From positions 1 to 58,994 of the forward strand of contig NZ_QOZG01000013.1 in the NCBI RefSeq assembly GCF_003335045.1: 58,994 nt of DNA, written 5' to 3'. The notes beneath the pieces are model-generated. The model worked only from the letters and a program-made list of their open reading frames with translations. It had not been told where the DNA came from and did not search any database. The stretch's first letter is position 1; each line of letters begins with the position of its first letter. Shown here in pieces: positions 8,171-39,298 of this stretch. The position numbers and the translations under genes are program-made. The stretch is from Paramesorhizobium salinisoli. GTDB lineage: Bacteria > Pseudomonadota > Alphaproteobacteria > Rhizobiales > Rhizobiaceae.

Positions 8171-10096
8171 TCAGTTCGCATCGGGCAAGGTGAAGGCGAC
8201 GACCTGATCGCTCACGCGTGGCGTCAGGATGGAATTGCCACCCGCTACGAACACCACATATTGCTTGCCCTTGTAGGTATAGATAGCAGGCATGGCAACG
8301 GCCGGCGCATCAACGTCTGCTTTCCACAGAACATCCCCTGTCTTCTGATCAAAGGCGCGAACCTTGGAGTCCATGGAGGCGCCGATGAAAATAAGGCCGC
8401 TCTTGGTGATCGCCGGCGCCCCGATGGTGACAGAACCCCAGGCATCAGGCATATAGAAGCCCCACTGCTGGACCGCGCCCATCGGCTTGCGCCAGAGAAG
8501 ATTGCCGGTCTTCAGATCATAGGCGGAAAGTTCACCATAGGGCGGATTCCAGCACGGCATACCGAACGGATTGAGAAAGGTCGTCAGGTTGAATCCGTAG
8601 GGACTGTCCTTCATGGGCGCAAAGCCGCCGGTTTCACGGACATCGTTGTCCGTGTCTTCGTTATATATCTCCCGGGGCAGAATCTGATATATCTGCACCA
8701 CATGGGAGTGATTGGCGACGTAGGTCTGGCTCACCGGATCCACCGCACCACCGCCCCATTCGACGCCACTGATCGTGGCAGGGTAAGCGAGCGTTCCCTG
8801 GCGGCTCGGCGGCGTGAAGCGGCCCTCATTGCGGAGCTCTTTCAGCTTTCGGCTGCAATAGCCGAAGCTCAGCGTATCGGCGAGCCAGAATATGCCGGGC
8901 CATTCCGCATGAACCATCGGCTCCGGATGATCGACGAAAGGCTGCGTCTTTGCGGCCACCTCGCCTTCCACGTCGGAAGCAGGAACCGGACGCTCCTCGA
9001 TCGGGTAGATCGGCTCGCCCGTATAGCGGTTGAGGATATAAAGGAAGCCCTGCTTCGACGCCTGAACGAGAGCGGGGATAGTCTGGCCATTCTTCTCTAT
9101 GTCGACCAGCGTGGGAGCAGAATTGGTGTCGTAATCCCATATGTCATGGTGCACCAGCTGTCGGCTCCAGATGATTTTGCCCGTCTCCGTGTCAACGGCA
9201 GTTACAGATGTCGCGAGCGGAATAGGTTCGGTCCGGTTCCCGCCATAAAAATTCGGGCTCGGCGAACTCACCGGGAGGTAGAGAATGTTGCGATCGGTAT
9301 CGATGGACATGCTGGACCAGACATTGGCCGTGCCCGTCTTGGCCCGGACGCTCTCAGGAATGGATTCAAAGGTCCATTCAAGCTTGCCAGTCCTTGCATC
9401 CACGGCAAAAACCGTTCCGGGAGGCGCGATGCTTTCCACCCAGTCCTTGCCGGCCCAGCCGATATAGAGCTTGTCCTTATAGACGGTCGGCGGCTGGAGA
9501 ATGGAGAGCGGCCATTTGGCGTTTTGGGTGTTCCAGGCATTGATGTCGAGAATACCGTTCACGCCGAAATCCGCGCACGGCTTGCCCGTATCGGCATCGA
9601 CGGCGTGGAGCTTCGCGTCCATCGTGCCGATATAGATACGTTTTTGGCAGGGCTGTCCCTCAGCGGGGTTTTCTGCCTGCCAATAAGCAACGCCGCGGTT
9701 CTTCATGTCCGGCTGGGTCAGAGCTTTCAAGACCGCATTGCTCTTGTAGGTCCATTTTACCTTGCCCGTATCGGGCTCGATGGCCACGATATTGTAGAAA
9801 GGCGTGCCAACATAAACCGTGTCGTTGACGAAGAGTGGGGTCGCCGACCATACACTCATGGGAATGTTGCCACTGCCATCCGAGACGTCGCCGGTGTGCA
9901 CTTCCCAAGCTTTTTTGAGCTGGCCGATATTGCCGGGCGTGATCTGGTCAGCCGGGGAATATTTCTGCGCCTTCAGATCTCCGTTGAATGTTGCCCAGGT
10001 ATTGTCGGCTGCTCCTGCGGGAGCCAGGCCGAGAATGGTCGCGAGCGCAAGGCCGGAGCACAGGGCAACAGTTCGCTTCTTCAGAATGCTGTTCAT
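8171..10096 (-). CDS. PQQ-dependent membrane dehydrogenase, large catalytic subunit (polyol/glycerol type)
   Basis: A 641-residue periplasmic quinoprotein of the eight-bladed propeller family (glucose/quinate/glycerol dehydrogenase group). The signal peptide ends near residue 29 (LAPAGAA). Repeated propeller motifs are visible: AIEPDTGKVKWTY, AVDADTGKPCADFG, AVDARTGKLEWTF, AVDTETGKIIWSRQ and AYDLKTGNLLWRKPMG. The active-site-type sequence LVHHDIWDYDTNSAP is present. It would oxidise a polyol or sugar and pass electrons to ubiquinone. The ATG at 10096 overlaps the stop of the upstream small membrane subunit (ATGA). This split order, small membrane subunit then large subunit, is that of sorbitol/glycerol dehydrogenase SldBA. 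The substrate is not fixed. PQQ synthesis genes are not in the window. Confidence 0.85.
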   Translation of the reverse strand: MNSILKKRTVALCSGLALATILGLAPAGAADNTWATFNGDLKAQKYSPADQITPGNIGQLKKAWEVHTGDVSDGSGNIPMSVWSATPLFVNDTVYVGTPFYNIVAIEPDTGKVKWTYKSNAVLKALTQPDMKNRGVAYWQAENPAEGQPCQKRIYIGTMDAKLHAVDADTGKPCADFGVNGILDINAWNTQNAKWPLSILQPPTVYKDKLYIGWAGKDWVESIAPPGTVFAVDARTGKLEWTFESIPESVRAKTGTANVWSSMSIDTDRNILYLPVSSPSPNFYGGNRTEPIPLATSVTAVDTETGKIIWSRQLVHHDIWDYDTNSAPTLVDIEKNGQTIPALVQASKQGFLYILNRYTGEPIYPIEERPVPASDVEGEVAAKTQPFVDHPEPMVHAEWPGIFWLADTLSFGYCSRKLKELRNEGRFTPPSRQGTLAYPATISGVEWGGGAVDPVSQTYVANHSHVVQIYQILPREIYNEDTDNDVRETGGFAPMKDSPYGFNLTTFLNPFGMPCWNPPYGELSAYDLKTGNLLWRKPMGAVQQWGFYMPDAWGSVTIGAPAITKSGLIFIGASMDSKVRAFDQKTGDVLWKADVDAPAVAMPAIYTYKGKQYVVFVAGGNSILTPRVSDQVVAFTLPDAN

Positions 10097-10476
10097 GACG
10101 ATGCCTTTCCTTTCACCGAGCGTACGCTGCGAACGACGGGAGCGCGTCGGGCGCCGACAGTGAGAAACCAGCCCACAAGGCAGACCGCCATTGCGACCAG
10201 AAGCCAAGCACTGTCGAGGAGATAGGCGGCAAATGCGGTGCCCAGGATCCCCAGTATCAGTAGAAAGATAAGTGTTCCCGGCAGCCAACCCCGCATCGAC
10301 GTCCATATGACGAGCGCCAGGGCTGCAAGCAGGATCGCGGTGCTGGACGCGATGACCAAAAGCGCGCCCCCTGTGCCGTTAATCCCGCTGGAACGCGTAG
10401 TATAAGCAATAAGTGATATGATCAGGCCGGCCGCCGCCCCTAGGGCGATCACGCCAGCGCTTGTTGCCCGACTCAT
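10093..10476 (-). CDS. PQQ dehydrogenase, small membrane subunit (SldB-like)
   Basis: A 127-residue integral membrane protein with four or five hydrophobic helices. It resembles the N-terminal membrane anchor domain of membrane glucose dehydrogenase and the separate SldB subunit (about 126 residues) of polyol dehydrogenases. It anchors the large subunit and contacts ubiquinone. I choose ATG 10476 because GGAG lies 8 bases upstream; an ATG two codons earlier is too close to it. Its stop overlaps the large-subunit start by 4 bases. Confidence 0.75.
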   Translation of the reverse strand: MSRATSAGVIALGAAAGLIISLIAYTTRSSGINGTGGALLVIASSTAILLAALALVIWTSMRGWLPGTLIFLLILGILGTAFAAYLLDSAWLLVAMAVCLVGWFLTVGARRAPVVRSVRSVKGKASS

Positions 10477-12541: not shown

Positions 12542-14215
12542 CTAGACGGCGATGTTTTCGGCGAGCCGTCGAAGTCGAAACCAGCGATATCCGTAGCCGG
12601 CGAGAGCAAGGGAAACGGATCCGTCCCGGCCTGCGGAAACATCCCCCTCGCCGAACAGGTCAATTAAACCATCCTGCCCAAGGGGCCGATTCAGCTTAAA
12701 TGAGATTTTCTGATCTTTGGCAGCCAGATTGTGGATGATGATCGAAGTCTGGCCATCCCAGTCGTAGCGCAAAGCGAGGATTGCGGGTTCAGCCACAGAC
12801 AGGAGGCTCCAATCGCCGAATACGATTTCGGGCGTCTCGCGCCGGCGGCGGATGAGGCGTTCCATCCAGCTCAGCAGCGATTGTGGATTGCGCTCCTGGT
12901 CTGCCACGTTGACTGCAGCCGGTCCCCATTTCCTTCCTTCGACGACGGGGCGGCTGAGCTTGTCGGGCGCAGCTGCGGAGAAGCCGCCATTGGGCTCGTT
13001 CGACCATTGCATAGGCGCACGCACGCTGAGGCGGCCGGGAATATCGAGATTCTCCGCCAGTCCGATCTCCTCGCCATAGAAGAGGACCGGTGCTCCAGGC
13101 AATGAGAAGATCAGGCTGTAGGCGAGCCGAATGCGGGTCTGGTCGCCGCTGAGCATTGTCGGCAGACGTCGGCGCAGACCCCGGCCGAAGAGCTGCATTT
13201 CAGGCTTTGGCCCGAAAGCGCGGAACACTTCCTGCCGCTCCGCCTCGGTCAGCTTGTCGAGCGACCACTCGTCGTGATTGCGCGCGAAGTTCGCCCAGGC
13301 GGCGTCGCGCGGCAAGGTGGGCATTGCGCGTAAGCTATGGACGAGCGCCCCTGCGTCCTGGCGCACCAACGCCAGGGCGAGGGCTTGGTTGAGGTTGAAA
13401 TTGAGACACATGTGCAACTCGTCGCCACCCTCGTCACCGTAGAAGCGGCGCACCTCCTCATATTCGAGGTTGACCTCGCCCAGCAGCATCGCATCGCCGC
13501 ACCGGCGCCCGAGAAAGCTGCGCAGGTCGCGCAGCCAATCATGCGGAGCGATCTTCATCTGCTGCGTGATGCCTTCAGTCTCCAGCAGGAACGGCACGGC
13601 ATCAACCCGGAAGCCCGAAAGTCCGATTTCCAGCCAGAAGCCGACGATCCTGCGGATCTCCTCGCGTACTTTCGGATGCGCTATGTTGAGGTCGGGCTGA
13701 TGCTTGTAAAAGCGGTGCAGGTAGAACTGCCCGGCCTTCTCATCCCACTCCCAGTTGCTCTCCTCCTCGCCCGGAAAGACCAGACTTTCAGAGCCACCCT
13801 TCGGCACCTCGTCACGCCAGACATACCAGTCGCGGTAGGGCGACTTACGGTCGGAGCGCGCAGCCTGGAACCAGGGATGCTCGCGTGAGGTGTGGTTGAC
13901 CACCAGGTCGGATATCACCCGGATGCCGCGGTCGCGCGCCGTACGTACGAACTCTACGAAATCGCCCAGCGTCCCCAAGCGCGGATCGACGGCATAATAG
14001 TCGGAGATGTCATAGCCGTCGTCGCGGTTCGTGCTAGGGTGGAATGGCATCAGCCATATGCAGGTTACACCTAGCCCAGCCAGATAATCGATCTGCTGCG
14101 CGAGACCGATGAAATCGCCGATGCCATCGCCATTGCCGTCGCGAAACGTCTCCACGTCGAGACAGTAGAAGACGGCGTTCTTCCACCAGACATCGCTGGT
14201 CCTGCTAATATCCAT
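12542..14215 (-). CDS. GH13 alpha-glucosidase/trehalose-synthase-like enzyme
   Basis: A 557-residue cytoplasmic (beta/alpha)8 enzyme of the TreS branch of GH13, which interconverts maltose and trehalose or acts on short alpha-glucosides. The conserved regions are all present: DLVVNHTS, GFRVDAVPFL (nucleophile Asp), MLLGEVN (acid/base Glu) and FARNHDE (third Asp). The N-terminus WWKNAVFYCLDVETFRDGNGDGIGD and the link APMQWSNEPNGGFS are typical of trehalose synthases. A beta-sandwich C domain ends the protein. It lacks the maltokinase domain sometimes fused to TreS. The LLM oxidoreductase gene ends 5 bases upstream, so the two form an operon. Confidence 0.85.
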   Translation of the reverse strand: MDISRTSDVWWKNAVFYCLDVETFRDGNGDGIGDFIGLAQQIDYLAGLGVTCIWLMPFHPSTNRDDGYDISDYYAVDPRLGTLGDFVEFVRTARDRGIRVISDLVVNHTSREHPWFQAARSDRKSPYRDWYVWRDEVPKGGSESLVFPGEEESNWEWDEKAGQFYLHRFYKHQPDLNIAHPKVREEIRRIVGFWLEIGLSGFRVDAVPFLLETEGITQQMKIAPHDWLRDLRSFLGRRCGDAMLLGEVNLEYEEVRRFYGDEGGDELHMCLNFNLNQALALALVRQDAGALVHSLRAMPTLPRDAAWANFARNHDEWSLDKLTEAERQEVFRAFGPKPEMQLFGRGLRRRLPTMLSGDQTRIRLAYSLIFSLPGAPVLFYGEEIGLAENLDIPGRLSVRAPMQWSNEPNGGFSAAAPDKLSRPVVEGRKWGPAAVNVADQERNPQSLLSWMERLIRRRRETPEIVFGDWSLLSVAEPAILALRYDWDGQTSIIIHNLAAKDQKISFKLNRPLGQDGLIDLFGEGDVSAGRDGSVSLALAGYGYRWFRLRRLAENIAV

Positions 14216-14220
14216 GGCAG

Positions 14221-15183
14221 TTAACTCCGTGCCAGCTGCGGGAGCACGCGCTCGCCAAAGGTCTCGATAAACTCCTGCTGCTCAGCTCCCACATGGTGAA
14301 GATAGAGGCCGTCGAAGCCCAGCTCCGCGAGTTCACCCAGCCAATCGACAAAGCGGGCGGGCTCCGACGAGATCAGGACGGCTTCGCGCATGTCTTCCTT
14401 GCGCACGAAACGGGACGCTTCGTCGAAATGCGCCGGCAGCTCCAAATCCCAACAGACGGGCGGCGCAAACATGTTCGATCGCCATTGGTCGTGGGCGATC
14501 TCGAGCGCAGCGCTTTCGTCCCGCGCGTAGGACAGATGGACCTGGAGGTAGAGCCGCTTGGTTTCGCCGCCGCCGCGGAATGCATCGATCATGCGCCTGA
14601 GATGCTCGCGCGATTGATTTACCGTAATCAGGCCGTCGGCCCACTGGCCCACCCAGCCAGCGGTCTCCACGCTGACTGCCGCGCCGATGAGCTTCGGTGG
14701 CTCGTCTGGGAGCGTCCACAGCCTCGCCCGATCGACCCTGACGAGACCGTCATGGCACACCGTTTCGCCGGCAAACAGGGCGCGCATCACCTTCACGCAC
14801 TCGCCCAGCCGGGCGTTGCGGACAGCTTTCGGTGGCCAGCTTTCACCGGTGATATGCTCGTTCGATGCTTCTCCAGAGCCAAGCGCCACCCAGAAGCGGC
14901 CCGGAAACATCAGGCCGAGCGTTGCGGCGGCCTGCGCTATGATCGCAGGGTGGTAGCGTTGTCCAGGTGCATTGACCACCCCAATTGTCAAGGAGGTCGC
15001 CTGTAGCGCAGCACCTAGCCACGACCATGCAAAGCCCGATTGCCCCTGTCTTTCGCTCCAGGGAGAGAAATGGTCGGAGCACATGGCGGCTTCGAAGCCG
15101 GCCTTCTCCGCCGCCTGCACCGCCTTCAGCAGCGATACTGGGTCGACCTGTTCGTGCGAGGCGTGAAATCCGATTAGCGGCAT
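14221..15183 (-). CDS. Luciferase-like (LLM class) FMN/F420-type oxidoreductase
   Basis: A 320-residue TIM-barrel protein of the bacterial luciferase superfamily. Seen features are the N-terminal strand IGFHASHEQ, CSDHFSPWSERQGQSGFAWSWLGAA, the GVVNAPGQRYHPAIIAQAAATL stretch (cofactor region) and LGSGEASNEH. The class resembles the TIGR03885-type oxidoreductases I recall next to GH13 genes. Substrate and cofactor are unknown. ATG 15183 is preferred over 15204 because CGGAG precedes it by 5 bases. It is the first gene of the pair with the trehalose-synthase-like gene. Confidence 0.75.
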   Translation of the reverse strand: MPLIGFHASHEQVDPVSLLKAVQAAEKAGFEAAMCSDHFSPWSERQGQSGFAWSWLGAALQATSLTIGVVNAPGQRYHPAIIAQAAATLGLMFPGRFWVALGSGEASNEHITGESWPPKAVRNARLGECVKVMRALFAGETVCHDGLVRVDRARLWTLPDEPPKLIGAAVSVETAGWVGQWADGLITVNQSREHLRRMIDAFRGGGETKRLYLQVHLSYARDESAALEIAHDQWRSNMFAPPVCWDLELPAHFDEASRFVRKEDMREAVLISSEPARFVDWLGELAELGFDGLYLHHVGAEQQEFIETFGERVLPQLARS

Positions 15184-15549
15184 TGCGGCTCCGGCCATTG
15201 TCAAGAACCGTGGGAGTGCTCCGACGGGACCCTCTGAGAACGAGATGAGGCCTGTACGGTTCCACAGCGGCCGAGTACTTGCTTGCCCACGAGGCAGTCC
15301 AGCGTGCCGCAGGATGGACAGGCGAGCTGAACTTGGAGCCTACAGGCGTAATGGCTCCAAAGACTGCGTTGTCCAAGGTCGCCAGATATCGGCCACAACC
15401 CGCTTGGCCTCAGGCTTGAATGCCGTAGAACAGCTTATCCCGCATCTCCCTTTGATCGCCCATCATCGACTCAATCTCCTCTTACAGAGAAGACTGAATC
15501 AGGGCTTCAGGGCAGCTGAGCCCCGACTTCTTCAACACTATCCGTCGGG
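15184..15549. other. Intergenic region, about 365 bp
   Basis: This stretch lies between the LLM/GH13 pair and the regulator pseudogene, both on the minus strand. It should hold the promoter of the pair. A minus-strand frame at 15201-15398 contains a CPSCGTLDC stretch, but it has no ribosome site and unconvincing composition, so it is not called. No repeat or terminator stands out. Confidence 0.4.
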
Positions 15550-17572
15550 TCAGTCATCCAGTCCAAGATGCCTCGCCGCCAGACGGAACAGCGTCTCCGC
15601 ATCAGTCTCGAACCGAAATGTCGCTAGAAAATCATCGATCCGGTAGCCCGGTATCGTTTGGCGGATCATCGCTGCAAACATTTTGCCCTCGTCGATCCGT
15701 CCGACCAGCGCCAGACAGTGTGCCGTGATGGCCAGAATGATGATATGCGCGTTGGGGCGAGCGGCGGCCTTGGACTGCCCAGTCCGCTGCTTCCTCGAAT
15801 TGCCCCAGTCGCACATGTGCCATGGCGCGTGCGCCGAGCATTCCAAACAGCAGCGGATCGAACGGACTGAGGCTCCGCGAATGGTCGGATGCGGCGATGG
15901 CCGCAGATGGGTCCCCCGACTGCGACTGGCCAAAGGACAAGGCGTAGTGCTGAGCGCGAAATTCGGGCTGAGATGACGGCGCGTTCAAGCTCCGCCACGG
16001 CTTGCTCCGGCCTGGAGCGCAACCATAACGCACGTCCCATCGCCCAGTGGGCGGCCGGATCTTGGTCATCAACCATCAGGCTGCGCCCCGCCGCGTCGAA
16101 AGCCAGAGCGGTCTCACGCTCTCGGTCCTCCCACTGCTGAAAAGCGTTCTGCCAATGCGTGAAGGAGAGACCGCTATAGGCCCTGGCAAACGTGGGATCC
16201 GTTTCGCTCGCTTGCTTGAAGAATTGCTGGGCGAGATCGTTATCTGTCTTGGTGAAGCGGTACATATGCCAGAGGCCGCGGTGATAGGCTTCCCATGCGC
16301 TAAGCGAGCTGGGCGGACGGAGAATGGCGCGGTTACGCTCGGCCATCTCAATCTCGCTGGCGATCGAGGCCACGATCCTGTCGCCGATTTCGTCGGTGAT
16401 AAGGAAAGCTTCATCCTGCTCGCTCTCGAATTCCCCGGACCAGACGATACGGGCCGTACGGGTCTCCACAAGTTCGACAGACACCTGCGACCTGCGCTCG
16501 ACATGCAGGAGGACGCCGCTGGCATAGTAATCGACATTGAGACGTCTCGCGGCGTCTTCTGGTGTAACGCCCTGGTCTGCGAGAGCGAACACCGAGCCGC
16601 TGGCGATGATGAACAGATTGAGCAGCTTGGCGAGCCGCGTGATGATGTCGTGGGTGAGCCCACGGGTAAGCCTTCCGTTGTGAACGCCGACTTGGGAAAA
16701 CGGCATGACCGCCAGCGAGGCTCGGTCAGTCAATGTCATGCGGTCTTCGTCCGCAGACATGACCGGTTGCGCTGGACAGGCGCTGACCGACGACATCGCC
16801 GACGCTTCCTTGCGAAGCTTTCGCCAGGCAAGCCGGATCTCGCCCAAATCGATTCCCTCCGCCTCGAACAGGCGAGCCACCGCCGCAAAATGATGCTCCG
16901 CCTGGTCCGGCATGCCGCTATCTATCAGCGACTTCAGTAGCAGAACCTGCGCGCGCATATCGAATGGGGAAAGTTCGACCCATCGTTCCGCGTGCAGTCT
17001 GAGGTCGCGCGGATCATTCGGCAGGAGCTCGACCATCCGCTGCAGCAGGGTGGCGTGAAAGCTTCGATACCGGCGGCGCTGGGTGGCGATCCAGTGATCG
17101 AGCTGCCGGCTCCTGTTGAGATCCAGCCCTTCTAGGAAATCGCCGACGATGAGCGAGCACAGCGCATCGACTTCCGCACGTTCCAACACACGGTGAGGCC
17201 GTTGCGTATCGCGGCCTCGACCTGCAGCGCGTCAACCATACAGTCTTCAAGATCGAGAGAGATCAATTCGTTTCTCGCCGAGAGGCGGTTGTGGCCGGGC
17301 TCGTCGAGCACAGCGCGCAGCTTGCTGAGGCACCAGCGCAGCTCTCCCCTGGGATCGTTCGGCACATCGCCAAGCACTTCACACAGGCGGCTGCGAGAGA
17401 CCGGATGCGCGGCTAGCGCGAGATAGGCGAGAAGGGCCCGCACCTTTCGCGAAGGCGGCAGTTCCACCGCACTGCCATTCCGGGTGACCGAAAGCGTACC
17501 GAACATTCGCACGCAGAGGGGCGCAGGAGCAACCTGTTCCAGGGGATTCGAGATTCTCATGCGCGTTTCCAC
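15550..17572 (-). pseudogene. BTAD/SARP-type transcriptional regulator with TPR tail, multiply frameshifted
   Basis: The pieces join into one regulator of about 670 residues. The N-terminal OmpR-like DNA-binding domain is in LCVRMFGTLSVTRNGSAVELPPSRKVRALLAYLAL (split over several motifs). A BTAD-type helical domain follows (GDFLEGLDLNRSRQLDHWI). Next come a TolB/cyclase-regulator-like segment (ASLAVMPFSQVG, GLTHDIITRLAKL, SVELVETRTARIVW) and TPR repeats (RAYSGLSFTHWQNAF, DPLLFGMLGARAMAHVRLGQFEEA). The frame breaks near 17185 (an extra GT pair in GTGTGTTGGAAC), near 15985 and near 15790. The tail NAHIIILAITAHCLAL...LGLDD is in the last frame. Three breaks argue for a true pseudogene. It faces the cupin operon, which it may once have controlled. 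Confidence 0.8.
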
Positions 17573-17697
17573 GTTTCCAACAACGCCCGCACCCTCGCAC
17601 CGATATTACCACTACGCACAGTCAATAGCATCATCGCCGTTGGCTCGTCGGATGACGCTCAGCCGTGCACCGGCACATCATGGATCAGGAGGATGTA

Positions 17698-18198
17698 ATG
17701 AAAGCGACATTGGATCACTATCGGGCATTTTCGGCGGTTGTCGGCGCAGCCGTAATCAGCGGCGCACTCTTGCTTTCCGCCACGCCGGGCATTTCCCACG
17801 ACGGCAAGCATCACGTCTTCGACGCCGCCGAGGTGGCGTACAAGCCGGGCCCGCCGACTCTGCCGGCCGGCGCTCAATTCGCCGTGTTGGTAGGTAATCC
17901 TGCCGAAGAAGGCCCCTTCGTCATGCGGCTGAAGTTTCCGGCAGGCTACGAAATCCCCCCGCATCGGCACCCCAAAGAAGAGCATGTCACCGTTTTGACT
18001 GGTGGTTTCGGCATGGCAATGGGTGAGAAGCATGACCGCCGTGCCGCCCCCATCATGGGTTCGGCCAGCTTCATCCAGATCCCGACCGGTGAGGCGCATT
18101 TCGCCTGGACCGAGGAGGAAACGGTTGTCCAGATCAATGCGATGGGACCATTCGGGGTTGAGTTTTTGAACCCCGCTGACGACCCGAGGACGCACTGA
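17698..18198 (+). CDS. Exported single-domain cupin protein
   Basis: A 166-residue protein with an N-terminal signal peptide (AVISGALLLSATPGISHD, cleavage near residue 34) followed by one cupin barrel. The first metal motif, G-x5-H-x-H-x3-E-x6-G, fits exactly in GYEIPPHRHPKEEHVTVLTG. The second motif is in IPTGEAHFAW. A metal-binding periplasmic enzyme or sensor is likely; no reaction can be assigned. ATG 17698 has AGGAGG 5 bases upstream. It is the first gene of an operon with the CysK-like and decarboxylase genes. Confidence 0.82.
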   Translation: MKATLDHYRAFSAVVGAAVISGALLLSATPGISHDGKHHVFDAAEVAYKPGPPTLPAGAQFAVLVGNPAEEGPFVMRLKFPAGYEIPPHRHPKEEHVTVLTGGFGMAMGEKHDRRAAPIMGSASFIQIPTGEAHFAWTEEETVVQINAMGPFGVEFLNPADDPRTH

Positions 18199-18265
18199 AC
18201 GATTGGCGACGAACGTCCCGCCTTCCGGAACCATTCGTCAGCCATATAGCTAGCGGAGATTAGAC

Positions 18266-19351
18266 ATGGAACACAACAAGAGCATTCGTGTAACCGCCGG
18301 CAGGGGCGGGCTCTACGACAACATTCTCGACACTGTCGGTGACACGCCGACTATCAGGATCAACAATCTCGGTGTCGGGCACGCCAGCATCTATGTGAAG
18401 GCCGAGTTCTTCAACCCGGCCGGCTCGGTCAAGGATCGCCTCGCGCTCAACATCATTGAGGACGCAGAGCGGCGCGGTCTACTGAAACCGGGCCAGACTG
18501 TGGTGGAGGCGACCAGCGGCAACACCGGTATCGGGCTTGCGATCGTCTGTGCACAGAAAGGTTATCCGCTTGTCGTGACGATGGCGGACAGTTTTTCGAT
18601 CGAACGGCGCAGGCTGATGCGTATGCTGGGTGCCAAAGTCGTGCTGACCCCGCGCGCGCTGAAGGGCTTCGGCATGTACCAAAAGGCAGTCGAACTAGCC
18701 GAGGCCAATGGCTGGTTCCTCGCGCGCCAGTTCGAAACCGAAGCCAATGCCGCCATTCACGAGATGACGACGGCGCGCGAAATCCTGGGCGACTTCGCCG
18801 GTTCCCGCCTCGACTACTTCGTCACCGGCTACGGAACCGGAGGTACCATCACCGGTGTCGGGCGCGTGCTGAGGCAAGAACTTCCGCGGGTCCGGATCAT
18901 TTTGAGCGAACCGGCGAATGCGCAGCTTCTAGGCAGTGGGGAGATGCAGCAGCGCGGCCCGGGCGGGGCGCCGGCGGCCACGCACCCCGCCTTCGAACCG
19001 CATCCCATCCAGGGTTGGACACCCGATTTCATCCCCAATGTACTCCAAGAGGCGATTGACGGTCGGCTTTATGACGAGGTGGTGCCGATTGCCGGACCCG
19101 AGGCAATCAAGTGGACACGTGAATTGGCGCGCCGAGAAGGCATCTTCGCGGGCATTTCAGGCGGGGCGACATTTGCCGTCGCGCGTCAGGTCGCGGAGAA
19201 GGCGCCGGCCGGATCGGTCATCTTGTGTATGCTGCCCGACACTGGCGAGCGCTATCTTTCTACACCGCTTTTCGAAGGCATCGAGACCGAAATGAACGAG
19301 GAAGAACTCGCTCTTTCCCGTTCGACGCCAGGCTTCCAGTTCGCCGCCTGA
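18266..19351 (+). CDS. Cysteine-synthase-like PLP enzyme (fold type II)
   Basis: A 361-residue cytoplasmic enzyme of the O-acetylserine sulfhydrylase/cystathionine beta-synthase family. It would join a nucleophile to an aminoacrylate from a serine derivative. Schiff-base Lys56 is in NPAGSVKDR, the substrate loop is TSGNTG (83-88), the phosphate cup is GYGTGGT, and LPDTGERYLST is near the end. The length exceeds CysK (about 310-330) because of a longer C-terminus. It lacks CBS domains. The neighbouring decarboxylase suggests that its amino-acid product is decarboxylated, rather than used for bulk cysteine supply. Confidence 0.88.
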   Translation: MEHNKSIRVTAGRGGLYDNILDTVGDTPTIRINNLGVGHASIYVKAEFFNPAGSVKDRLALNIIEDAERRGLLKPGQTVVEATSGNTGIGLAIVCAQKGYPLVVTMADSFSIERRRLMRMLGAKVVLTPRALKGFGMYQKAVELAEANGWFLARQFETEANAAIHEMTTAREILGDFAGSRLDYFVTGYGTGGTITGVGRVLRQELPRVRIILSEPANAQLLGSGEMQQRGPGGAPAATHPAFEPHPIQGWTPDFIPNVLQEAIDGRLYDEVVPIAGPEAIKWTRELARREGIFAGISGGATFAVARQVAEKAPAGSVILCMLPDTGERYLSTPLFEGIETEMNEEELALSRSTPGFQFAA

Positions 19352-19373
19352 AGCAGCTATAGCGAGGAAACCC

Positions 19374-20852
19374 ATGGACGCCAAACTGCAGCCCGCGGAT
19401 ACGGCCACCGAAGAAACGCTCGATCCTGCCGATTGGTCGGGCGTTGAACGGATTGCCCGTCGCCTCGTGGGCGACGCCATCGTCCATCTGCGTGACGTGC
19501 GCCAGCGACCCGCCTGGCGGGAAATGCCAAGGGACGTTCAGTCTCGTTTCCGGGAGCCCCTGCCGGAAGATTCTCTGCCGCTCGAAGCGGTACTGGCCGC
19601 GGTTACGGATGACGTCATGCCCTATCCCATGGGCAATGTGCATCCGCGCTTCTGGGCCTGGTACATGGGATCCGGCAACCTGACGGGAGCTTTCGCGGAC
19701 TTTCTGGCCGCGATCCAGGGGTCCAATCTGGGTGGCGGCAATCATGCCGCCGCCCTCGTCGACCTGCAGGTGGTCGACTGGTGCAAACAGATGGTCGGGT
19801 TTCCCGCAACGGCGAGCGGCACACTGACCAGCGGCGGCTCGGTCGCCAACCTCATCGGCCTGACGGTCGCGCGCAACGCCATGGCTGACATCGACATCCG
19901 CGAACTCGGTGTCGCAGCCGCCGCGCAGCCGCTCCGCTTCTACGGGTCCGATCAGATCCATAGCTGCCATCGCAAGACTGTCGAAGCGCTGGGCCTCGGA
20001 AACCGGGCGCTACGGCGGATCGCAACTGGCCCCGACTTCCGTATCGACATTTCCGCGCTGACGCATGCGATAGAAGAGGATCGGGCCAGCGGGTTTCGCC
20101 CGGCATGCATCATCGCCAATGCCCGCTCCGTCAATACGGGTGCGCTTGACGATCTGGAGGCGTTGGCCGACTTGGCAGACGAGCAGAATCTCTGGTTCCA
20201 TGTCGACGGCTGCATCGGCGCACTGATCGCGATTGCGCCGCGCCATCGATCCCTGGTGGCCGGGCTGCATCGCGCGGACTCATTGGCGCTTGATCCACAC
20301 AAGTGGCTGCACGCGCCGTTCGATGTCGGTTGCTGCCTGGTTAAGAATGCGGCCGCGCATCGTGGCACGTTCGCCACCACGCCGGAATATCTGGAATCGG
20401 CATCGCGCGGTCTTGCTTCAGGCGAATGGTTGCACGAATACTGTCTTCAGACGTCCCGTGGTTTCCGCGCGCTCAAGGTCTGGATGGCTTTGAAAGAGCA
20501 TGGCGTCAACAAGTTCGGCCGCTTGATCGACCAAAACATCGATCAGGCGCACTATCTCGCTCGCCTCATCGAGGCGGAGCCAAACCTTTCTCTGATGGCG
20601 ACGACGACAATCAACATCGTATGCTTCCGCTATGATCCGGGCGGGCTGGATGAACCCGCTCTCAAGGCGCTCAACACGGAAATCATGCTGCAACTTCAGG
20701 AAGACGGCCTGGCCGTCCTGTCAGACACCACTTTGCGTGGCCGGCATTGTCTGCGCGCGGCAATCGGCAATCACCGGACGCGATGCGAGGATATAGATTT
20801 GCTGGTCGCTGAGATCGTGCGGCGGGGAAAAATCCTGTCGGATGGGAGCTAG
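19374..20852 (+). CDS. Group II PLP-dependent amino-acid decarboxylase
   Basis: A 492-residue member of the glutamate/aromatic/cysteine-sulfinate decarboxylase family (fold type I). PLP-binding Lys310 is in ALDPHKWLHAPFDVG. The upstream Asp is in WFHVDGCIGAL, the histidine stacking on PLP in SDQIHSCHRKTVEALGLG. PYPMGNVHPRFWAWYMG near residue 85 is typical of this bacterial branch. It starts 22 bases after the CysK-like gene, so both should be made together. Possible substrates include aromatic amino acids, cysteate or cysteine sulfinate, or a new product of the preceding enzyme. Confidence 0.87.
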   Translation: MDAKLQPADTATEETLDPADWSGVERIARRLVGDAIVHLRDVRQRPAWREMPRDVQSRFREPLPEDSLPLEAVLAAVTDDVMPYPMGNVHPRFWAWYMGSGNLTGAFADFLAAIQGSNLGGGNHAAALVDLQVVDWCKQMVGFPATASGTLTSGGSVANLIGLTVARNAMADIDIRELGVAAAAQPLRFYGSDQIHSCHRKTVEALGLGNRALRRIATGPDFRIDISALTHAIEEDRASGFRPACIIANARSVNTGALDDLEALADLADEQNLWFHVDGCIGALIAIAPRHRSLVAGLHRADSLALDPHKWLHAPFDVGCCLVKNAAAHRGTFATTPEYLESASRGLASGEWLHEYCLQTSRGFRALKVWMALKEHGVNKFGRLIDQNIDQAHYLARLIEAEPNLSLMATTTINIVCFRYDPGGLDEPALKALNTEIMLQLQEDGLAVLSDTTLRGRHCLRAAIGNHRTRCEDIDLLVAEIVRRGKILSDGS

Positions 20853-21084: not shown

Positions 21085-22851
21085 CTACAGCGGACTGAAC
21101 GGCACGAACAGAACGCCGAGCCCGGCCGCCACGAGCGCCGCGCGGACCGGGAACCGATAAGCGGCGATCAGCCCGTAGGAAACGCAGGTCAGGCCGATGG
21201 CCACCTTGACGCCGGAAAACAGTGCTGCAACCGGCGCCTGCGCTGTGGCAAGCAGGTTCGGATTGGCGATCATCGCCAGCGGGATCAGATAAAGGCCGAC
21301 GCCCAAAGCCATTGCGGTGAAGGCCACCTTCAGCCAGTCTTCGCGCACCATGCCGGCAGCGATGAAGACAGCGCCGCAGACAGGTGGCGTGATGGTCGAC
21401 AAAAGCGCGAACCAGAACACGAAGAGATGGGCCTGAAGCGGCGCGAGACCGAGTTGTGTGAGCGCTGGTCCGGCGACCGAAACGCAGATGACGTACGCAG
21501 CTGTCGTCGGCACCTCCATGCCCAGGATGAGGCAGGCCGCCGCGGTCAGGAACAGGGACGGCCATAACATGCCGCCGGAACCCGATAGGATCAGCGATGT
21601 GATCTTTACGCCAAGTCCGGTGATCGACAACACGCCGACGATGAGCGAGGCGCAAAGGATGATAGCAGCGATCATCGATACCTGCCGCGCCGCGGCGATC
21701 AGGGCATCCTCGAACCGGGCCAGAGCCGCGCGCCCGCTGAAATGGAGCCTGCCGTCGACCAACAGCAGGACGGTTCCAGCAAGGATGGCGAAAGCGGCGG
21801 CATATTGCGGCGTGTAGCGCGCCCAAAACATGCCCCACAAAAGGACCGAAAACGGCACCAGGAAGAAAGCCGAGGTGACGAGCAGGTCGCGTGGCGCAGG
21901 CTTCTGATCGTCCGGCAGGCCCTTTAAGGGATAGCGTGTGGTGAAGGCGTTGATGCCCACCCATACGGCGAGGAAATAGAGGATGGCAGGCAGGGCCGCC
22001 GCCGCCATGATGCCGGTGTAGGGCGTGCCCGTCAGTTCCACCATGACGAAGGCCCCTGCCCCCATCAGTGGCGGCATGATCTGCCCGCCGGAGGAGGCCA
22101 CCGCCTCGATCGCGCCGGCCAACCGCTTGGGATATCCAAGTCCGACCATCGCCGGAATCGTGATGGCCCCGGTAGAGGCCACATTCGCCGAGGCCGACCC
22201 GGAGATCGAGCCGAACAATGCAGACGAGATGACCGACACCTTGCCCGCGCCGCCGTTCAGCCGGCCAGCGGCGGCCGCCGCCACATTCATGAAGCCGCGC
22301 CCCGCCTCGCCCGCATTCAGCACCGCGCCGAAGATGACGAAGATCGCGACCGTGCCGACCGAGACCCCGGTCAGGCTGCCCCACAGCCCGCCCTCGGCGA
22401 TTGTCAGCGTGCCGAGGAAGCTTGCCAGCGGCGTTCCCGCATGGCCGAACTCGCCTGGAATATATTGGCCGAACAGGCCGTAGAGCAGCGCCAGCGCGGC
22501 GACGCCGGGCAGCGCCCAGCCGATGGCCCGGCGCGCTGTCTCCAGAACCACGATGAGCAGCGTGACGGCGATCCCGATCTGCATGGGACCTTCCAGAAAG
22601 CCATACTGGTCGGCAAGGTTCTGCTCGTTTAACGCCAGCCACACACACGCCGCGATCCCCGCAATCGCCAGCACCCAGCCGGAAAGGCGCTTCAGGCCGG
22701 TCGAAGGCGCGAAGATCAAGAGCCATGGCAGGATCAGCGCCATGTGCAACGGTCGGCTGACGAGGTTCGGCACGAGGCCGGAAAAGATCAGCCCCAGATG
22801 AAAGGCGACGAGCAGCCCGGCAAGAGCCGCAGGAAGAATGCGTTTGGTCAT
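21085..22851 (-). CDS. TRAP transporter fused permease (DctQ-DctM, TAXI system)
   Basis: A 588-residue inner-membrane protein in which the small (about 4 helices) and large (about 12 helices) TRAP subunits are one chain, as usual in TAXI-type transporters. Conserved motifs include SALFGSISGSASANVASTGAITIP and GYPKRLAGAIEAVASSGGQIMPPLMGAGAF, with LSTITPPVCGAVFIAAG in the second half. The start at ATG 22851 (MTKRILPAALAG) gives a normal first helix. No strong ribosome site is seen, and an upstream in-frame start at 22941 would add an unlikely leader. It forms an operon with the TAXI binding protein upstream. Confidence 0.9.
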   Translation of the reverse strand: MTKRILPAALAGLLVAFHLGLIFSGLVPNLVSRPLHMALILPWLLIFAPSTGLKRLSGWVLAIAGIAACVWLALNEQNLADQYGFLEGPMQIGIAVTLLIVVLETARRAIGWALPGVAALALLYGLFGQYIPGEFGHAGTPLASFLGTLTIAEGGLWGSLTGVSVGTVAIFVIFGAVLNAGEAGRGFMNVAAAAAGRLNGGAGKVSVISSALFGSISGSASANVASTGAITIPAMVGLGYPKRLAGAIEAVASSGGQIMPPLMGAGAFVMVELTGTPYTGIMAAAALPAILYFLAVWVGINAFTTRYPLKGLPDDQKPAPRDLLVTSAFFLVPFSVLLWGMFWARYTPQYAAAFAILAGTVLLLVDGRLHFSGRAALARFEDALIAAARQVSMIAAIILCASLIVGVLSITGLGVKITSLILSGSGGMLWPSLFLTAAACLILGMEVPTTAAYVICVSVAGPALTQLGLAPLQAHLFVFWFALLSTITPPVCGAVFIAAGMVREDWLKVAFTAMALGVGLYLIPLAMIANPNLLATAQAPVAALFSGVKVAIGLTCVSYGLIAAYRFPVRAALVAAGLGVLFVPFSPL

Positions 22852-22910
22852 GGGACGATCAGGTTGGGGACGATCACAGTGGAACGAAAAAGCGGAAGGC
22901 AAAGTGAAGA

Positions 22911-22928
22911 GCGCGGCATCCGCCGCAC
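22911..22928 (-). promoter_or_regulatory. Intercistronic stem-loop after TAXI binding-protein gene
   Basis: GCGCGGC/GCCGCAC pairs over 7 bp (one G-T pair) around a 4-base loop, in the 95-bp gap between the TAXI protein gene and the fused permease gene. No T-run follows. The position matches the stem-loops after the other binding-protein genes of this window. Confidence 0.4.
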
Positions 22929-22946
22929 GCTTCGCGAGCACGAGGT

Positions 22947-23918
22947 TTACATCTGACCTTCAGCCAGTTCAAAACCCGCTTCCTTGTAGTAGCGGATGGC
23001 GCCGGGATGCAGCTTGCCGGCTATATTGGCCATCAAGCTCTTGTCGACGCCCTTCCACCAAGGTGCCGAACCGCTCATCGCCTCTTTCTGTTGCCAAAAG
23101 GTTTTGGTGAGTTGGTAGGCGGCCTCTTCGTCCATCGCCGTCGTGGTATAGGCGACGACAGGCAGAGACGTCGTCAGGATGTCCTTGTCCTGGCCGGCGT
23201 AGACACCGGCAGGGATCGTCAATGGCGCGCGCTTCGTTTCAGCGATTTGCTCCGGTGTCAACGACAGGATGTTGACATCGACACTTGCCGCGGCCTCCAA
23301 AACGTTCGGCGCAGGCCAGGAGCCGGCGGTGACGAACCCGTCGATCTGGCCGTTCTTCAGCGCGGCGACGGCGTTCGAAAGTTCCGCATCGGCGATCTTC
23401 ACCTTGCCATCGAGGCTGAACAGGCCGAGATATTTCTCGCCCTCCGTCGCGCCGAAGGATCCCTTGCCGAGCAAAATGGTCTTGCCCTCCATGCCGGCGA
23501 AATCCTGCGCTCCTGACGCCTTCGACATGACGAAGTGCATGGTGAGCGACGGGATCGGGAACAGGCCGCGGATATCGGCAAATTTCGGATCGCCCTTGCC
23601 CTTGAAGGCCCCGGTCCCCATTTGCGCCGCGCCGACCAGTGCGGGCGGCGTCGTGAAGACATAGTCCCCGCCCCGCGCGCGCACTTCCATCACATTTTGC
23701 ACCGAGCCCTGGCTTTCCTCGATGGTCATGATGATCTTGCCGTGGGTGCCCTTCTTTATCGCCTCGGCAATCTCGACGCCCATCTGGTAATATGACGAGC
23801 CGGCCTTGGCGGATTTGTAGGTCACCCGGGTTTCGGCGCTTGCGGCGGTGGCGGCGGTGGCGGCGACGCCAACGGCCAAGGCCGAGGCGAGCGTGGCTTT
23901 GATGGCTGAACGAAACAT
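22947..23918 (-). CDS. TAXI-family TRAP transporter solute-binding protein
   Basis: A 323-residue periplasmic receptor. The signal peptide ends ATAATAASAE near residue 29. TAXI features are YKSAKAGSSYYQMGVEIAEAIKK at the mature N-terminus, RARGGDYVFTTPPALVGAAQ, and a late PWWKGVDKSLMANIAGKLHPGAIRYYKEAG. It delivers a carboxylate or amino acid to the fused permease encoded downstream; the ligand is unknown. ATG 23918 is chosen because GGGAGGA stands 10 bases upstream and the signal peptide starts there. Confidence 0.9.
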   Translation of the reverse strand: MFRSAIKATLASALAVGVAATAATAASAETRVTYKSAKAGSSYYQMGVEIAEAIKKGTHGKIIMTIEESQGSVQNVMEVRARGGDYVFTTPPALVGAAQMGTGAFKGKGDPKFADIRGLFPIPSLTMHFVMSKASGAQDFAGMEGKTILLGKGSFGATEGEKYLGLFSLDGKVKIADAELSNAVAALKNGQIDGFVTAGSWPAPNVLEAAASVDVNILSLTPEQIAETKRAPLTIPAGVYAGQDKDILTTSLPVVAYTTTAMDEEAAYQLTKTFWQQKEAMSGSAPWWKGVDKSLMANIAGKLHPGAIRYYKEAGFELAEGQM

Positions 23919-24097
23919 TGCTGGAAGTCCTCCCTGTATTGCTGCGTTCCGCATAGCAGGCGCCTTCCCATTTGACCAAGCATCAGAACATGAATTATGC
24001 CGTTTTTGCTGGAAAATGAGCAGATGGACGGAATCCAGTCGATCATGCCACTTTGTGTTCATTGGAAACAAGAAGAACAGTGACATGGCTTTCGCGA

Positions 24098-24316
24098 TCA
24101 AAACCGAGGTTGCGATCCGCAGGCGCAGACGGTGATAGGGTCGATCGGCAACCGCGCGATCATGGCACCGCCCAAGATGCCCCGCAGCCCCAGCACCAGC
24201 AAGCCGACGATGATTTGCGGCCGGGTATACGCGACCCTTTTCCCAACGCGGGCGACTGGCGTGCGCAATACGATCGCGAAGTATTTGAGGGCCGGCACCA
24301 TCGAACCGGCAGCCAT
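24098..24316 (-). pseudogene. Possible remnant of a membrane-protein gene
   Basis: Between the TRAP and sugar ABC operons (gap 23919-24367), a minus-strand frame reads PALKYFAIVLRTPVARVG, then the hydrophobic PQIIVGLLVLGLRGILGGAM. This looks like the end of an integral membrane protein. The frame is open back to about 24370, without a ribosome site or full-length start. The family is not recognised. The rest of the gap, 23919-24097, is the AT-rich upstream region of the TAXI gene. Confidence 0.3.
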
Positions 24317-27320: not shown

Positions 27321-28625
27321 CTACTCGAGTTCGAGCGCATCCTGGATCATCTGGGCGCCCTCCTCCGGCGACATCTGGCCAGTGAGGATTTCGATGGTGA
27401 CGTCGTTGACCACCCGGCCGACCGCCGGTCCGAGATCCTGGTCGAAATAGTTCTGATGCCAGGTAGAGGCAGCGAGTTGGTCCGCCGAAGCGCGCATCAG
27501 CGGATCAGCAATACCGTCTTCCGCGCCTAGGGCCGCGGGAATGATCATCCCGGCCGCTGCCTGGATGCGCTCATTGTCCTTATCGGTCAGATAACGCAGG
27601 AAATCGAGCGCTTGCGGCGGCGCTTTCCTGGTGACGGCCCAGCCATTGAGACCGCCCAGCGTATCGGTTGCGGCACCCGCGCCGCCTTCGACCACGGGAA
27701 AGGCAAAACGGCCGATATTATCGGACGCAAGCCCCTTGCCGTCGCCGGATTGGGTACGCTGGTTCGCCTCGGTGTTCTCAAAGCTGAGGATTATCGCCGC
27801 CTTGCCGTCACCGAAGACGCCGAGGGTTTGGGGCCATGTGGCGCCGAGATAGCCGCCCTGGAAGGGTTCAAGCTTGCCCAGTTCCGCAAGCTGCTCGCCG
27901 GCCTTGATGATCGCCGGGTCCAGAAAGCCTTCGCCCTCCTTGTTCTTGGCGGCCGAGAAGACCTCCTGTCCGCCATTGCGCATGACGAGATAGCTCCAGT
28001 AGAAATGCAAAGGCCACTTGTCGCCGCCGCCGCCGGCGATCGGGGTAATTCCAGCCGCTTTCAGCGTCTTGACGGCTTCGATGAAATTATCCCAGGTCTT
28101 GATGCCCTCGGCCTTCACACCAGCTTTATCGAAAAGCGCCTTGTTATAGAAAAAGCTCACAGTTCCCATTTTGTAGGGGACCGCAAAAATTTTCTCATTG
28201 AAGGTGAAGCCCTTTACGGCGGCTGGATTATACGTCTTCACCCAGGCGCCACCATCGGCGTTCATCGCGTCGCTCAGGTCCATCAGCGTCCCGGTTTCGG
28301 ACTGCTGCTTCAGCACGCCGCCGCCCCAGGAATAGAAGAAATCCGGTGCGTCCTCAGACTGGAGAAGCGTCGGAAGCTTGGCCTTGAATGCCTCGTTGTC
28401 CAGGAATTGCAGCTGAATATCCACATCAGGATGCGCGGCTTCGTATTTCGCGGCAATGTCTTCCCAGACTTTCACATAGGACGGTACTGTTTCCAAATGC
28501 AGCCATTTGACCACGGTCTGGGCCGCACTTGCGCCCGTACCCGAGAGAAATGCCAGTCCGGTCGCGGCTACAAGGGCTGATAGATTTCTGGCGCGAAGGG
28601 GCGCCTTCCCATAGAGATGGATCAT
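27321..28625 (-). CDS. Sugar ABC transporter substrate-binding protein (SBP_bac_1 family)
   Basis: A 434-residue extracytoplasmic receptor. The signal peptide is about 35 residues (LAFLSGTGASAA). The mature part begins TVVKWLHLETVPSYVKVWEDIAA, followed by FDKAGVKAEGIKTWDNFIEA, typical of cluster-B sugar receptors. GGAGGAG lies 5-6 bases before ATG 28625; upstream in-frame starts lack this and would bury the signal peptide. It heads the minus-strand operon and is divergent from the ROK regulator, which presumably controls it. The sugar is unknown. Confidence 0.92.
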   Translation of the reverse strand: MIHLYGKAPLRARNLSALVAATGLAFLSGTGASAAQTVVKWLHLETVPSYVKVWEDIAAKYEAAHPDVDIQLQFLDNEAFKAKLPTLLQSEDAPDFFYSWGGGVLKQQSETGTLMDLSDAMNADGGAWVKTYNPAAVKGFTFNEKIFAVPYKMGTVSFFYNKALFDKAGVKAEGIKTWDNFIEAVKTLKAAGITPIAGGGGDKWPLHFYWSYLVMRNGGQEVFSAAKNKEGEGFLDPAIIKAGEQLAELGKLEPFQGGYLGATWPQTLGVFGDGKAAIILSFENTEANQRTQSGDGKGLASDNIGRFAFPVVEGGAGAATDTLGGLNGWAVTRKAPPQALDFLRYLTDKDNERIQAAAGMIIPAALGAEDGIADPLMRASADQLAASTWHQNYFDQDLGPAVGRVVNDVTIEILTGQMSPEEGAQMIQDALELE

Positions 28626-28735
28626 CGCAGTCTCCTCCCGGGGAACATTCCTCACCAATTTGTCCCCAATACGGATTAATTCAACTGACGTTAGCGCGAA
28701 AGTCAACGAGGATTCCGGATTTTGTGCCAATTTGC

Positions 28736-28765
28736 TTGACAGGCTATGGGCATTCTCGGTTATTT
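28736..28765 (+). promoter_or_regulatory. Candidate promoter of the ROK regulator gene
   Basis: TTGACA at 28736-28741 is followed after 18 bases by TTATTT at 28760-28765. The neighbouring TTAATTC appears both at about 28676 and at about 28764, and may be half-sites of the divergent control region. The assignment rests on consensus only. Confidence 0.4.
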
Positions 28766-28829
28766 AATTCGCATTCCGGCCAAATCATTCCCGCAGCTGT
28801 ATCGGACCAAAAGAGTAACCTGCCAGATC

Positions 28830-30038
28830 ATGAAGACAGCCGATCCCGAACTTATGCGAGCGATCAATCGCTTCAACGTGCTGGACACCATCCGCCGGCA
28901 TGGGCCCATTTCGCGGGTGGAAATCAGCGAGCGCTCCGAGCTTTCCACCACCACCGTCTCGGCGATCACGGGCGCGCTGCTCGATGACGGGCTGATCCTG
29001 ACGCGCCACGAAGGCGATCTCCGCAATGCCGCCGCGCGCGGCCGGCCGCGCGTCATGCTGGAGCTCAATCCCGATGCAGCACGCGTCGTCGGCGCCAAGA
29101 TCGCGGCGCATTGCATTGTCTTCGTCGTCACCAATTTCTGCGGCGAGGTGCTGTCGCACCTGACCCTGCCGATCCGCGTCAACCGCCAGTCGATCGCCGT
29201 CATCGCAGACCTTATCGAAGATGGGGTGCGGCGATGCGTGGTCGATGCCGGGCTGTCGCTCGGTGATGTCGATTCCATCTGCATCGGCCTGCCCGGCGTC
29301 ATTGAGCACCGCACCGGCCATGTCCGCTCGAGCCCGATCTTCCGGGAGGCAAATGTCGATTTCGCCAGCGAGATGACGAACCGGCTAAACGTGCCGACTA
29401 TCGTCGAGAGCGACGCGCACGCGATTGCGCTGGCACATCATTGGTTTGGCAAGGCACGCGATCTCGACGATATGGTGCTCGTCTCGCTGGAGCAGACGCT
29501 CGGCCTCGGCGTGCTGCATCACGGTCAGCTCTTTCGCGGTGCCGGCGGCCTCAGCCACAATCTCGGCGACCTTGTGCTGGGTATCGGGCCGCAGGACATC
29601 GTGCGGCTTTCAGCGCTTGCCGGCGAGAACGCCGTCCTTGGCGATCAGCCCGATGGTGGCGGGCGCTTGGCCGAGGCCATGCGGCTCGGACGCGGCATGG
29701 CGCTTGCGCAGACACTGATTGCCGCCGAGGACGATAGGCTGATTGCAGCCGCGACCCATGCTGGAGAAGCTGTAGGGCTTGCGGTCGCCAATATCGTCAC
29801 CCTTTTCGGCCCGCCGCGCGTCATCATCGTCGGATCGACCCTATCGCTTGGATCCGTTTTTCTCGACAGCCTGCGTGACGCTTACAGGCGCGCCATTCCG
29901 CCCTCGATCCAGGCCGTCGCGGAACTCATCTTTGACGAATCCGCCGACGAGACCTGGGCGCAAGGGGCGGCAGTGGTCGCGCTGTGCGAACTCTACGAAT
30001 CCCCTTGGGGAACGACGGGGCCGGCACCAGCCCTTTAA
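28830..30038 (+). CDS. ROK-family transcriptional regulator (NagC/XylR type)
   Basis: A 402-residue repressor-type protein. The N-terminal winged HTH is in VLDTIRRHGPISRVEISERSELSTTTVS (about residues 17-44). The ROK domain follows: VVGAKIAAHCIVFVV, IGLPGVIEHRTGHV, ESDAHAIALAHHWFG, VSLEQTLGLGVLHHGQLFRGAGG. Oddly, the cysteine-rich zinc motif (CxCGxxGC) normal after the GAxG segment is absent: the region reads GAGGLSHNLGDLVLG and contains no cysteine. ATG 28830 is preferred over 28746, since similar proteins start just before the HTH. It is divergent from the sugar ABC operon and followed by the oxidoreductase and ThuA genes. Confidence 0.88.
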   Translation: MKTADPELMRAINRFNVLDTIRRHGPISRVEISERSELSTTTVSAITGALLDDGLILTRHEGDLRNAAARGRPRVMLELNPDAARVVGAKIAAHCIVFVVTNFCGEVLSHLTLPIRVNRQSIAVIADLIEDGVRRCVVDAGLSLGDVDSICIGLPGVIEHRTGHVRSSPIFREANVDFASEMTNRLNVPTIVESDAHAIALAHHWFGKARDLDDMVLVSLEQTLGLGVLHHGQLFRGAGGLSHNLGDLVLGIGPQDIVRLSALAGENAVLGDQPDGGGRLAEAMRLGRGMALAQTLIAAEDDRLIAAATHAGEAVGLAVANIVTLFGPPRVIIVGSTLSLGSVFLDSLRDAYRRAIPPSIQAVAELIFDESADETWAQGAAVVALCELYESPWGTTGPAPAL

Positions 30039-30087
30039 TGCTTCGGGCATCTGCCCCGCACTTTACATTTCGGTTTGGAGGAGACTG

Positions 30088-31188: not shown

Positions 31189-31207
31189 AAATCTGGAGGA
31201 AAATATC

Positions 31208-31849: not shown

Positions 31850-31926
31850 CGCACGGGTGCTGGAAACCCTTCACCGGCAATTCGGTTCATCGTCGGCCCT
31901 CTGAGACCTGCCCTGCTCTTCGTGAG

Positions 31927-38223: not shown

Positions 38224-39298
<1,075 letters not shown>

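Follow-up and report, generated by a model that had tools for sequence, protein, structure and literature searches.

Conserved pairing of a CysK-like enzyme with a group II decarboxylase beside a divergent TPR regulator, with a tentative link to cysteamine

Genes and features of the locus

The window, i.e., the whole stretch of DNA analyzed here, spans 58,994 nucleotides of Paramesorhizobium salinisoli (contig NZ_QOZG01000013.1, positions 1-58,994, forward strand). Three genes follow one another closely on its plus strand, with intergenic gaps of 67 bases (cupin to CysK-like gene) and 22 bases (CysK-like gene to decarboxylase), and face a regulator gene on the minus strand across a repeat-bearing promoter. 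The features are as follows.

15559-17572, minus strand: divergent TPR regulator gene, broken or mis-assembled, found by tblastn as four pieces in three frames
17555-17597, no strand: operator-like direct repeats with a 12-bp period, degenerate, from reading the sequence
17698-18198, plus strand: cupin gene, optional accessory; 166 aa, Cupin_7 with conserved ligands
18266-19351, plus strand: CysK-like fold type II PLP enzyme, first gene of the conserved pair; 361 aa, PALP, Lys56, TSGNTG
18941-18988, plus strand: clade-specific 16-residue insertion of the CysK-like enzyme, residues 226-241 including His240, from alignment
19374-20852, plus strand: group II PLP decarboxylase, second gene of the conserved pair; 492 aa, Pyridoxal_deC, Lys310, loop Tyr339

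All of these parts fall into known families. The three tightly ordered, same-strand genes had been described in a sequence-only reading of this stretch, and Pfam places each of them above the cut-off of its family (Cupin_7, 36.2 bits vs 27; PALP, 229.9 vs 35; Pyridoxal_deC, PF00282, 194.9 vs 27). The residues named in that reading are likewise in place: SVKDR begins at residue 54 and TSGNT at residue 83 of the CysK-like enzyme (Lys56 and TSGNTG), HKWL begins at residue 309 of the decarboxylase (Lys310), and cupin metal motif 1, G(X)5HxH(X)3E(X)6G, can be read by eye.

The enzyme pair and its regulator are conserved across genomes

GTDB contigs were scanned with a six-decarboxylase alignment, which yielded 351 confirmed loci; the 80 best of them, leaning to Mesorhizobium, Phyllobacterium, and close kin, were kept. 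Across these best 80 of 351 loci, the CysK-like gene adjoins the decarboxylase upstream and on the same strand in 78, with 18-130 bases between the two matches, and the regulator lies on the opposite strand in 77, whereas a cupin was matched in only 4. The conserved unit is the divergent TPR regulator with the CysK-like enzyme and the group II decarboxylase, and not the trio that includes the cupin. The three-gene neighborhood put forward earlier is thus retained in part: the order of CysK-like gene then decarboxylase, which might have been found in no relative, is kept in many, but the cupin is not. As for the two loci without a CysK-like gene, L085 has 100 bases of sequence ahead of the decarboxylase, and L118 has upstream sequence from which the gene is absent. 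Since the pair keeps its order and strand across several families, a chance neighborhood was rejected.

Wider draws showed how often each gene occurs with the other. Among 297 genomes of the family, searched with a limit of E up to 1e-105 for the CysK-like enzyme and at least 60% identity for this decarboxylase type, 46 carry the former and 37 the latter, and in 28 the coordinates put the two together (~1 kb apart in G030). The decarboxylase occurs without a CysK-like partner in 9/37 genomes, and the CysK-like enzyme without this decarboxylase in 18/46. A class-wide draw of 289 genomes gave 22 that matched, including the window's own; a decarboxylase sits beside the CysK-like gene in 5 of the 21 other loci, and none was found beside it in 16. 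The decarboxylase is absent from all five searched genomes of the window's genus, and the unit is therefore patchy.

A larger biosynthetic cluster finds no support. Once the three genes, regulator paralogues, and antisense frames are excluded, every other open reading frame of 18 reference loci turns up in at most 24 of 85 loci. The adjacent TRAP transporter was also rejected as a partner, neither of its proteins being matched at 1e-10 in the best 80 of the 351 loci.

A distinct clade of CysK-like enzymes

The window CysK-like enzyme lies at the edge of the cysteine synthase A family, scoring 353.4 bits against TIGR01139 (cysK; cut-off 350.95). Four clade relatives fall on both sides of this cut-off (352.7 and 358.3 over, 349 and 347.4 under), and one sequence from outside the clade reaches 436 bits. 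The NCBIfam models for cysteate synthase (171 vs 600), SbnA (185 vs 350), and CysM (227.6 vs 413 and 224 vs 394.2) score the window enzyme far below their cut-offs. The possibility that this protein is the sole ordinary cysteine synthase of its genome, on which the sequence-only reading had made its proposal depend, can be discarded: a separate, ordinary CysK (45-47% identity) is encoded at C8, and weaker homologues at C3 and C15.

Alignment sets the clade apart by a 16-residue insertion (residues 226-241), where 10/10 non-clade rows have a gap at residues 228, 230, and 240 and 51/51 clade rows have His240, and its members also share a C-terminal tail. A C-terminal glutaredoxin domain is present on 14/51 clade rows, with a Pfam match shown for L124; the window enzyme has no such fusion. 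The window enzyme thus has the catalytic lysine and TSGNTG loop of CysK and a score at the family cut-off, but differs from CysK in its insertion, its tail, its separate position in the tree, its presence in addition to the genome's own CysK, and its membership of a clade that is decarboxylase-paired or glutaredoxin-fused. Close to the active site, its GWTPDF and KGxGM stretches are near those of the L220 CysK, which has no insertion and whose gene neighbors cysG, a LysR-type gene lying past it; cysteine synthesis is therefore the plainest guess at the activity of the window enzyme.

The best solved match of the enzyme is DcsD, the O-ureido-L-serine synthase of D-cycloserine synthesis (PDB 3x43; 337 vs 276 bits), and ARQF and PDTGERYLST are common to both. 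DcsD nevertheless has no insertion, and no other D-cycloserine-type cluster gene is conserved around the pair in the reference loci. In a tree whose bootstrap had not fully settled and of which three rows were disregarded, a 100/100 branch divides DcsD, which groups with ordinary CysK, from the clade of the window enzyme. A DcsD-like O-ureidoserine enzyme, the lead given by the solved match, is not supported by this grouping.

The decarboxylase and its nearest solved relatives

His309-Lys310 is invariant and loop Tyr339 occurs in at least 90% of 22 aligned rows, so that the window enzyme likely decarboxylates. Its nearest solved relatives are of the aromatic type: 4obu, a tryptophan decarboxylase (206 bits), 7xin, a DOPA decarboxylase (198 bits), and a plant aromatic enzyme (172 bits). 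GAD2 (120 bits) and the chains of CSAD, the cysteine sulfinate decarboxylase of the taurine route (101-103 bits), are more remote, and CSAD is hence not its closest relative. The window enzyme shares Pfam family, Lys310, and loop Tyr339 with 4obu and 7xin, but scores only ~200 bits against them and reads DGCIG where the solved enzymes in the alignment read DGAYG, DSAMA, or DAAY; in the tree, 7xin and 6eew fall with other rhizobial rows, apart from the window clade. No NCBIfam model comes near its cut-off, the top match being diaminobutyrate decarboxylase (187 vs 900). Three cysteines (Cys198, Cys280, and Cys320) are invariant in both decarboxylase alignments and are not common as a set to the two other decarboxylase types described below. 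The predicted structure has a mean pLDDT of 60.5, with residues 80-144 and 308-377 below 50.

Decarboxylases of three branches accompany one CysK-like clade

Members of the CysK-like clade stand beside decarboxylases of three types, namely P0003, P0005 (L124, L154, and L163), and P0007 (L226), which are separated in a tree with long branches and several unsure row placements. In L124 (Novosphingobium) and L163, a CysK-like-glutaredoxin fusion is followed by a P0005-type decarboxylase, and in L154 a decarboxylase of this type accompanies an unfused CysK-like enzyme. L226 has a DsrE/DsrF-like gene, then a P0007-type decarboxylase, then a CysK-like-glutaredoxin fusion, the DsrE gene running in the same direction. 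In L227, which shares its genus with L226, the P0007-type decarboxylase was found only as a 100-residue remnant. The genome of L013, a row of the P0005 branch, has no CysK-like match at the limit used.

Because decarboxylases of three branches lie beside a single CysK-like clade, the product of the first enzyme is probably the substrate of the second, which we infer to be the easiest explanation of this pairing. The two-step idea of the sequence-only reading, beta-replacement followed by decarboxylation, is favored by the same observation. The glutaredoxin and DsrE partners lean towards sulfur chemistry. According to the abstract of PMC3528435, Escherichia coli glutaredoxins reduce S-sulfocysteine, the product of CysM, to cysteine. 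The present clade resembles this thiosulfate route in joining a beta-replacement enzyme with glutaredoxin, but the window enzyme is unfused and far below the CysM cut-offs, and no decarboxylase step appears in that abstract.

A divergent regulator and 12-bp promoter repeats

The regulator gene of the window was located by tblastn with an intact 680-residue homologue from L042. The four minus-strand pieces (17572-17156, 17186-15975, 15967-15752, and 15771-15559), each at 74-81% identity, together cover residues 1-678 of the homologue minus a few at the joints. Intact homologues have TPR matches, and two of them match Pfam BTAD at 13.5 and 16.2 bits, under the cut-off of 22.1, a third being unlisted. 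A regulator does face the operon, as had been proposed from the sequence, but BTAD-type is a weak label for it.

At the start of the regulator gene, within the divergent promoter, we found TTCCACG direct repeats, new in this analysis. Of 87 sequences, 82 had a placeable regulator start; at least two copies of CCACG at a spacing of 10-13 bases occur in 77 of these 82 loci and at least three copies in 60, compared with 0.27% of shuffled sequences and 1.0% of the 120-base tiles cut from the same loci, the repeat-bearing loci being related and hence not independent events. The spacing is exactly 12 in 137/145 cases. The array overlaps the position where the regulator frame is predicted to start, and a 12-bp period keeps frame, so that a coding peptide repeat was considered. 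At the second codon, the middle base is variable (T 64%, C 31%), whereas the third is 95% fixed. Short of proof, this pattern speaks for the array being a DNA site rather than a peptide repeat. Direct-repeat operators are typical of SARPs.

The exact triple repeat was sought in 12 whole genomes, together with a reversed control pattern. It occurs at the regulator locus in six and, in five of those, nowhere else; matches elsewhere number four, vs two for the reversed control, and three of the 12 genomes have none. The window repeats are degenerate (TCTCATG at 17555, TTCCACG at 17567, AACAACG at 17579, and ACCCTCG at 17591), and their decay is in line with the broken window regulator.

Candidate function of the pair

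We tentatively favor, at a low level of confidence, a function in which cysteine from a dedicated synthase passes to a decarboxylase for conversion to cysteamine. The CysK-like enzyme would exchange the acetyl group of O-acetylserine for a sulfur nucleophile, most simply sulfide, yielding L-cysteine, and the adjoining group II decarboxylase would strip the carboxyl group to give cysteamine. By binding the repeats, spaced at 12 bp, of the shared promoter, the TPR regulator may control both its own gene and the operon, with the cupin as a presumed optional extra. This sulfur-amine reading draws on the conserved pairing (78 of the best 80 of 351 loci; 28/297 family genomes), the three decarboxylase branches, the position of the clade at or near the cysteine synthase A cut-off, the glutaredoxin fusions, and the DsrE gene of L226; that the decarboxylase stands alone in 9/37 genomes would suit a widely available substrate, for instance cysteine. 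Against cysteamine stand the aromatic type of the nearest solved decarboxylase relatives and the unpaired genes (decarboxylase in 9/37 genomes, CysK-like enzyme in 18/46, and no decarboxylase found beside the latter in 16/21 class-wide loci), and against sulfide specifically, a glutaredoxin fusion would suit thiosulfate equally. No group II enzyme is known that has been proven to convert free cysteine to cysteamine.

The same two steps could instead begin from another nucleophile (thiosulfate, sulfite, cyanide, ammonia, an alkyl thiol, or a hydroxyurea-like compound), so that a beta-substituted alanine would be decarboxylated to a taurine-like, aminopropionitrile-like, or diamine product. The conserved pairing and the three decarboxylase branches suit this alternative as well, and it could further draw on DcsD as the best solved match (337 vs 276 bits), on the aptness of glutaredoxin for S-sulfocysteine chemistry (PMC3528435), and on diaminobutyrate decarboxylase as the top NCBIfam match, albeit far under its cut-off (187 vs 900). 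We rate it slightly below the cysteamine reading, with DcsD placed outside the clade among ordinary CysK, cysteate synthase and SbnA at 171 vs 600 and 185 vs 350, and solved CSAD at 103 bits vs 206 for the best solved decarboxylase.

We regard it as nearly as likely again that the enzymes are not sequential and share only a regulator and a stress, the CysK-like enzyme adding cysteine or clearing sulfide while the decarboxylase acts on an ordinary, e.g., aromatic, amino acid. Each gene does occur without the other (9/37 and 18/46 genomes; L036, L247-L254), Paracoccus, Devosia, and a Gemmatirosa plasmid have CysK-like copies with no decarboxylase in the fetched stretches, and the decarboxylase most resembles aromatic-type enzymes, but the presence of three decarboxylase branches beside one CysK-like clade would then be a coincidence.

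The cysteamine reading in its fullest form, in which a specialized cysteine synthase clade, sometimes glutaredoxin-fused or next to a sulfur-relay gene, supplies decarboxylases of three branches making cysteamine as a bacterial route to a free aminothiol, under a regulator with nearly a single target that reads the 12-bp repeats, is rather improbable as a whole. If the unit, which recurs in many Mesorhizobium and related genomes of soil and root bacteria, does make cysteamine or a related sulfur amine, its hosts could go straight from sulfide to a small thiol or taurine-like compound, and decarboxylases unnamed in family libraries would acquire a substrate. Full-text searches of an open-access library with few subscription papers turned up no description of a CysK and group II decarboxylase operon, of a bacterial CysK-glutaredoxin fusion, or of the insert-bearing clade and the promoter repeats; PMC2705460 describes a glutaredoxin on an oomycete PAPS-reductase gene, and not on a cysteine synthase.

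The cupin as an accessory

An alignment of six cupins shows no variation at His89, His91, Glu95, or His134, and the N-terminus of the window cupin, judged by eye, probably carries a signal peptide for export. A functional trio, in which the cupin, once exported, would sense or modify the amine product in the surroundings of the cell, is very improbable: its metal ligands are conserved, and a cupin gene directly precedes the CysK-like gene in the window, the four kept loci, L034, L162, and L235, but 76 of the best 80 of 351 loci, a few of which end early at contig ends, have no cupin match, and L162 has cupin, regulator, and CysK-like gene with no decarboxylase found. The cupin as a core part, as conceived in the sequence-only reading, was dropped on its presence in 4/80. 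In L033 and L154, a different protein with an exported look sits in the unit, which also counts against the trio.

Regulation of the unit in the window

In the window, the gene for the unit's regulator (15559-17572) is split into four pieces that lie in three frames. The promoter repeats, TTCCACG direct repeats with a 12-bp period at the divergent promoter of the unit, are degenerate here; the enzyme genes of the same unit, which encode the CysK-like protein and the group II decarboxylase, are intact. The switch of the window unit may have been lost.

Gene fusions and additional genes at other loci

Several of the cysteine-synthase-like proteins encoded in other genomes carry a C-terminal glutaredoxin domain, including those of loci L124 (6989-8506), L163, and L226 (5563-7050), and such fusions account for 14 of the 51 alignment rows of the CysK-like clade. 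The domain was assigned by Pfam for L124 only, and by tblastn for the remaining fusions. At L227, a decarboxylase remnant of 100 residues (6194-6493) lies upstream of the CysK-glutaredoxin gene; the decarboxylase is whole at L226, which holds a relative of that gene.

At the place occupied by the cupin in the window, the units of L033 (6567-7115) and L154 (8546-9076) include an exported-looking protein, 60% identical between the two loci and with no Pfam match; L033 also contains an SCO4226-like nickel-responsive gene. In several lineages (L127, 9004-10710; L154; L156; L240), the decarboxylase is followed by an adenylate-cyclase-plus-TPR protein. Among lone CysK-like genes, the one at L171 adjoins a homoserine/serine O-acetyltransferase-like gene (likeness judged by eye), and another, at L169 (5943-6899), follows a homocysteine S-methyltransferase family gene.

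Genomic neighbourhood in the window

The unit adjoins a TAXI-type TRAP transporter with fused permease and binding protein (21085-24101), which had no match in the best 80 of 351 loci from the decarboxylase-based scan of GTDB contigs. Other window genes comprise:

8171-10306, PQQ-type dehydrogenase
12542-15204, glycosidase near the TreS N-terminal model (561.7 bits vs. a cut-off of 678.35), next to an FMN-type LLM oxidoreductase scoring above the TIGR03885 model cut-off
27321-39298, GH127 beta-L-arabinofuranosidase and sugar ABC transport parts
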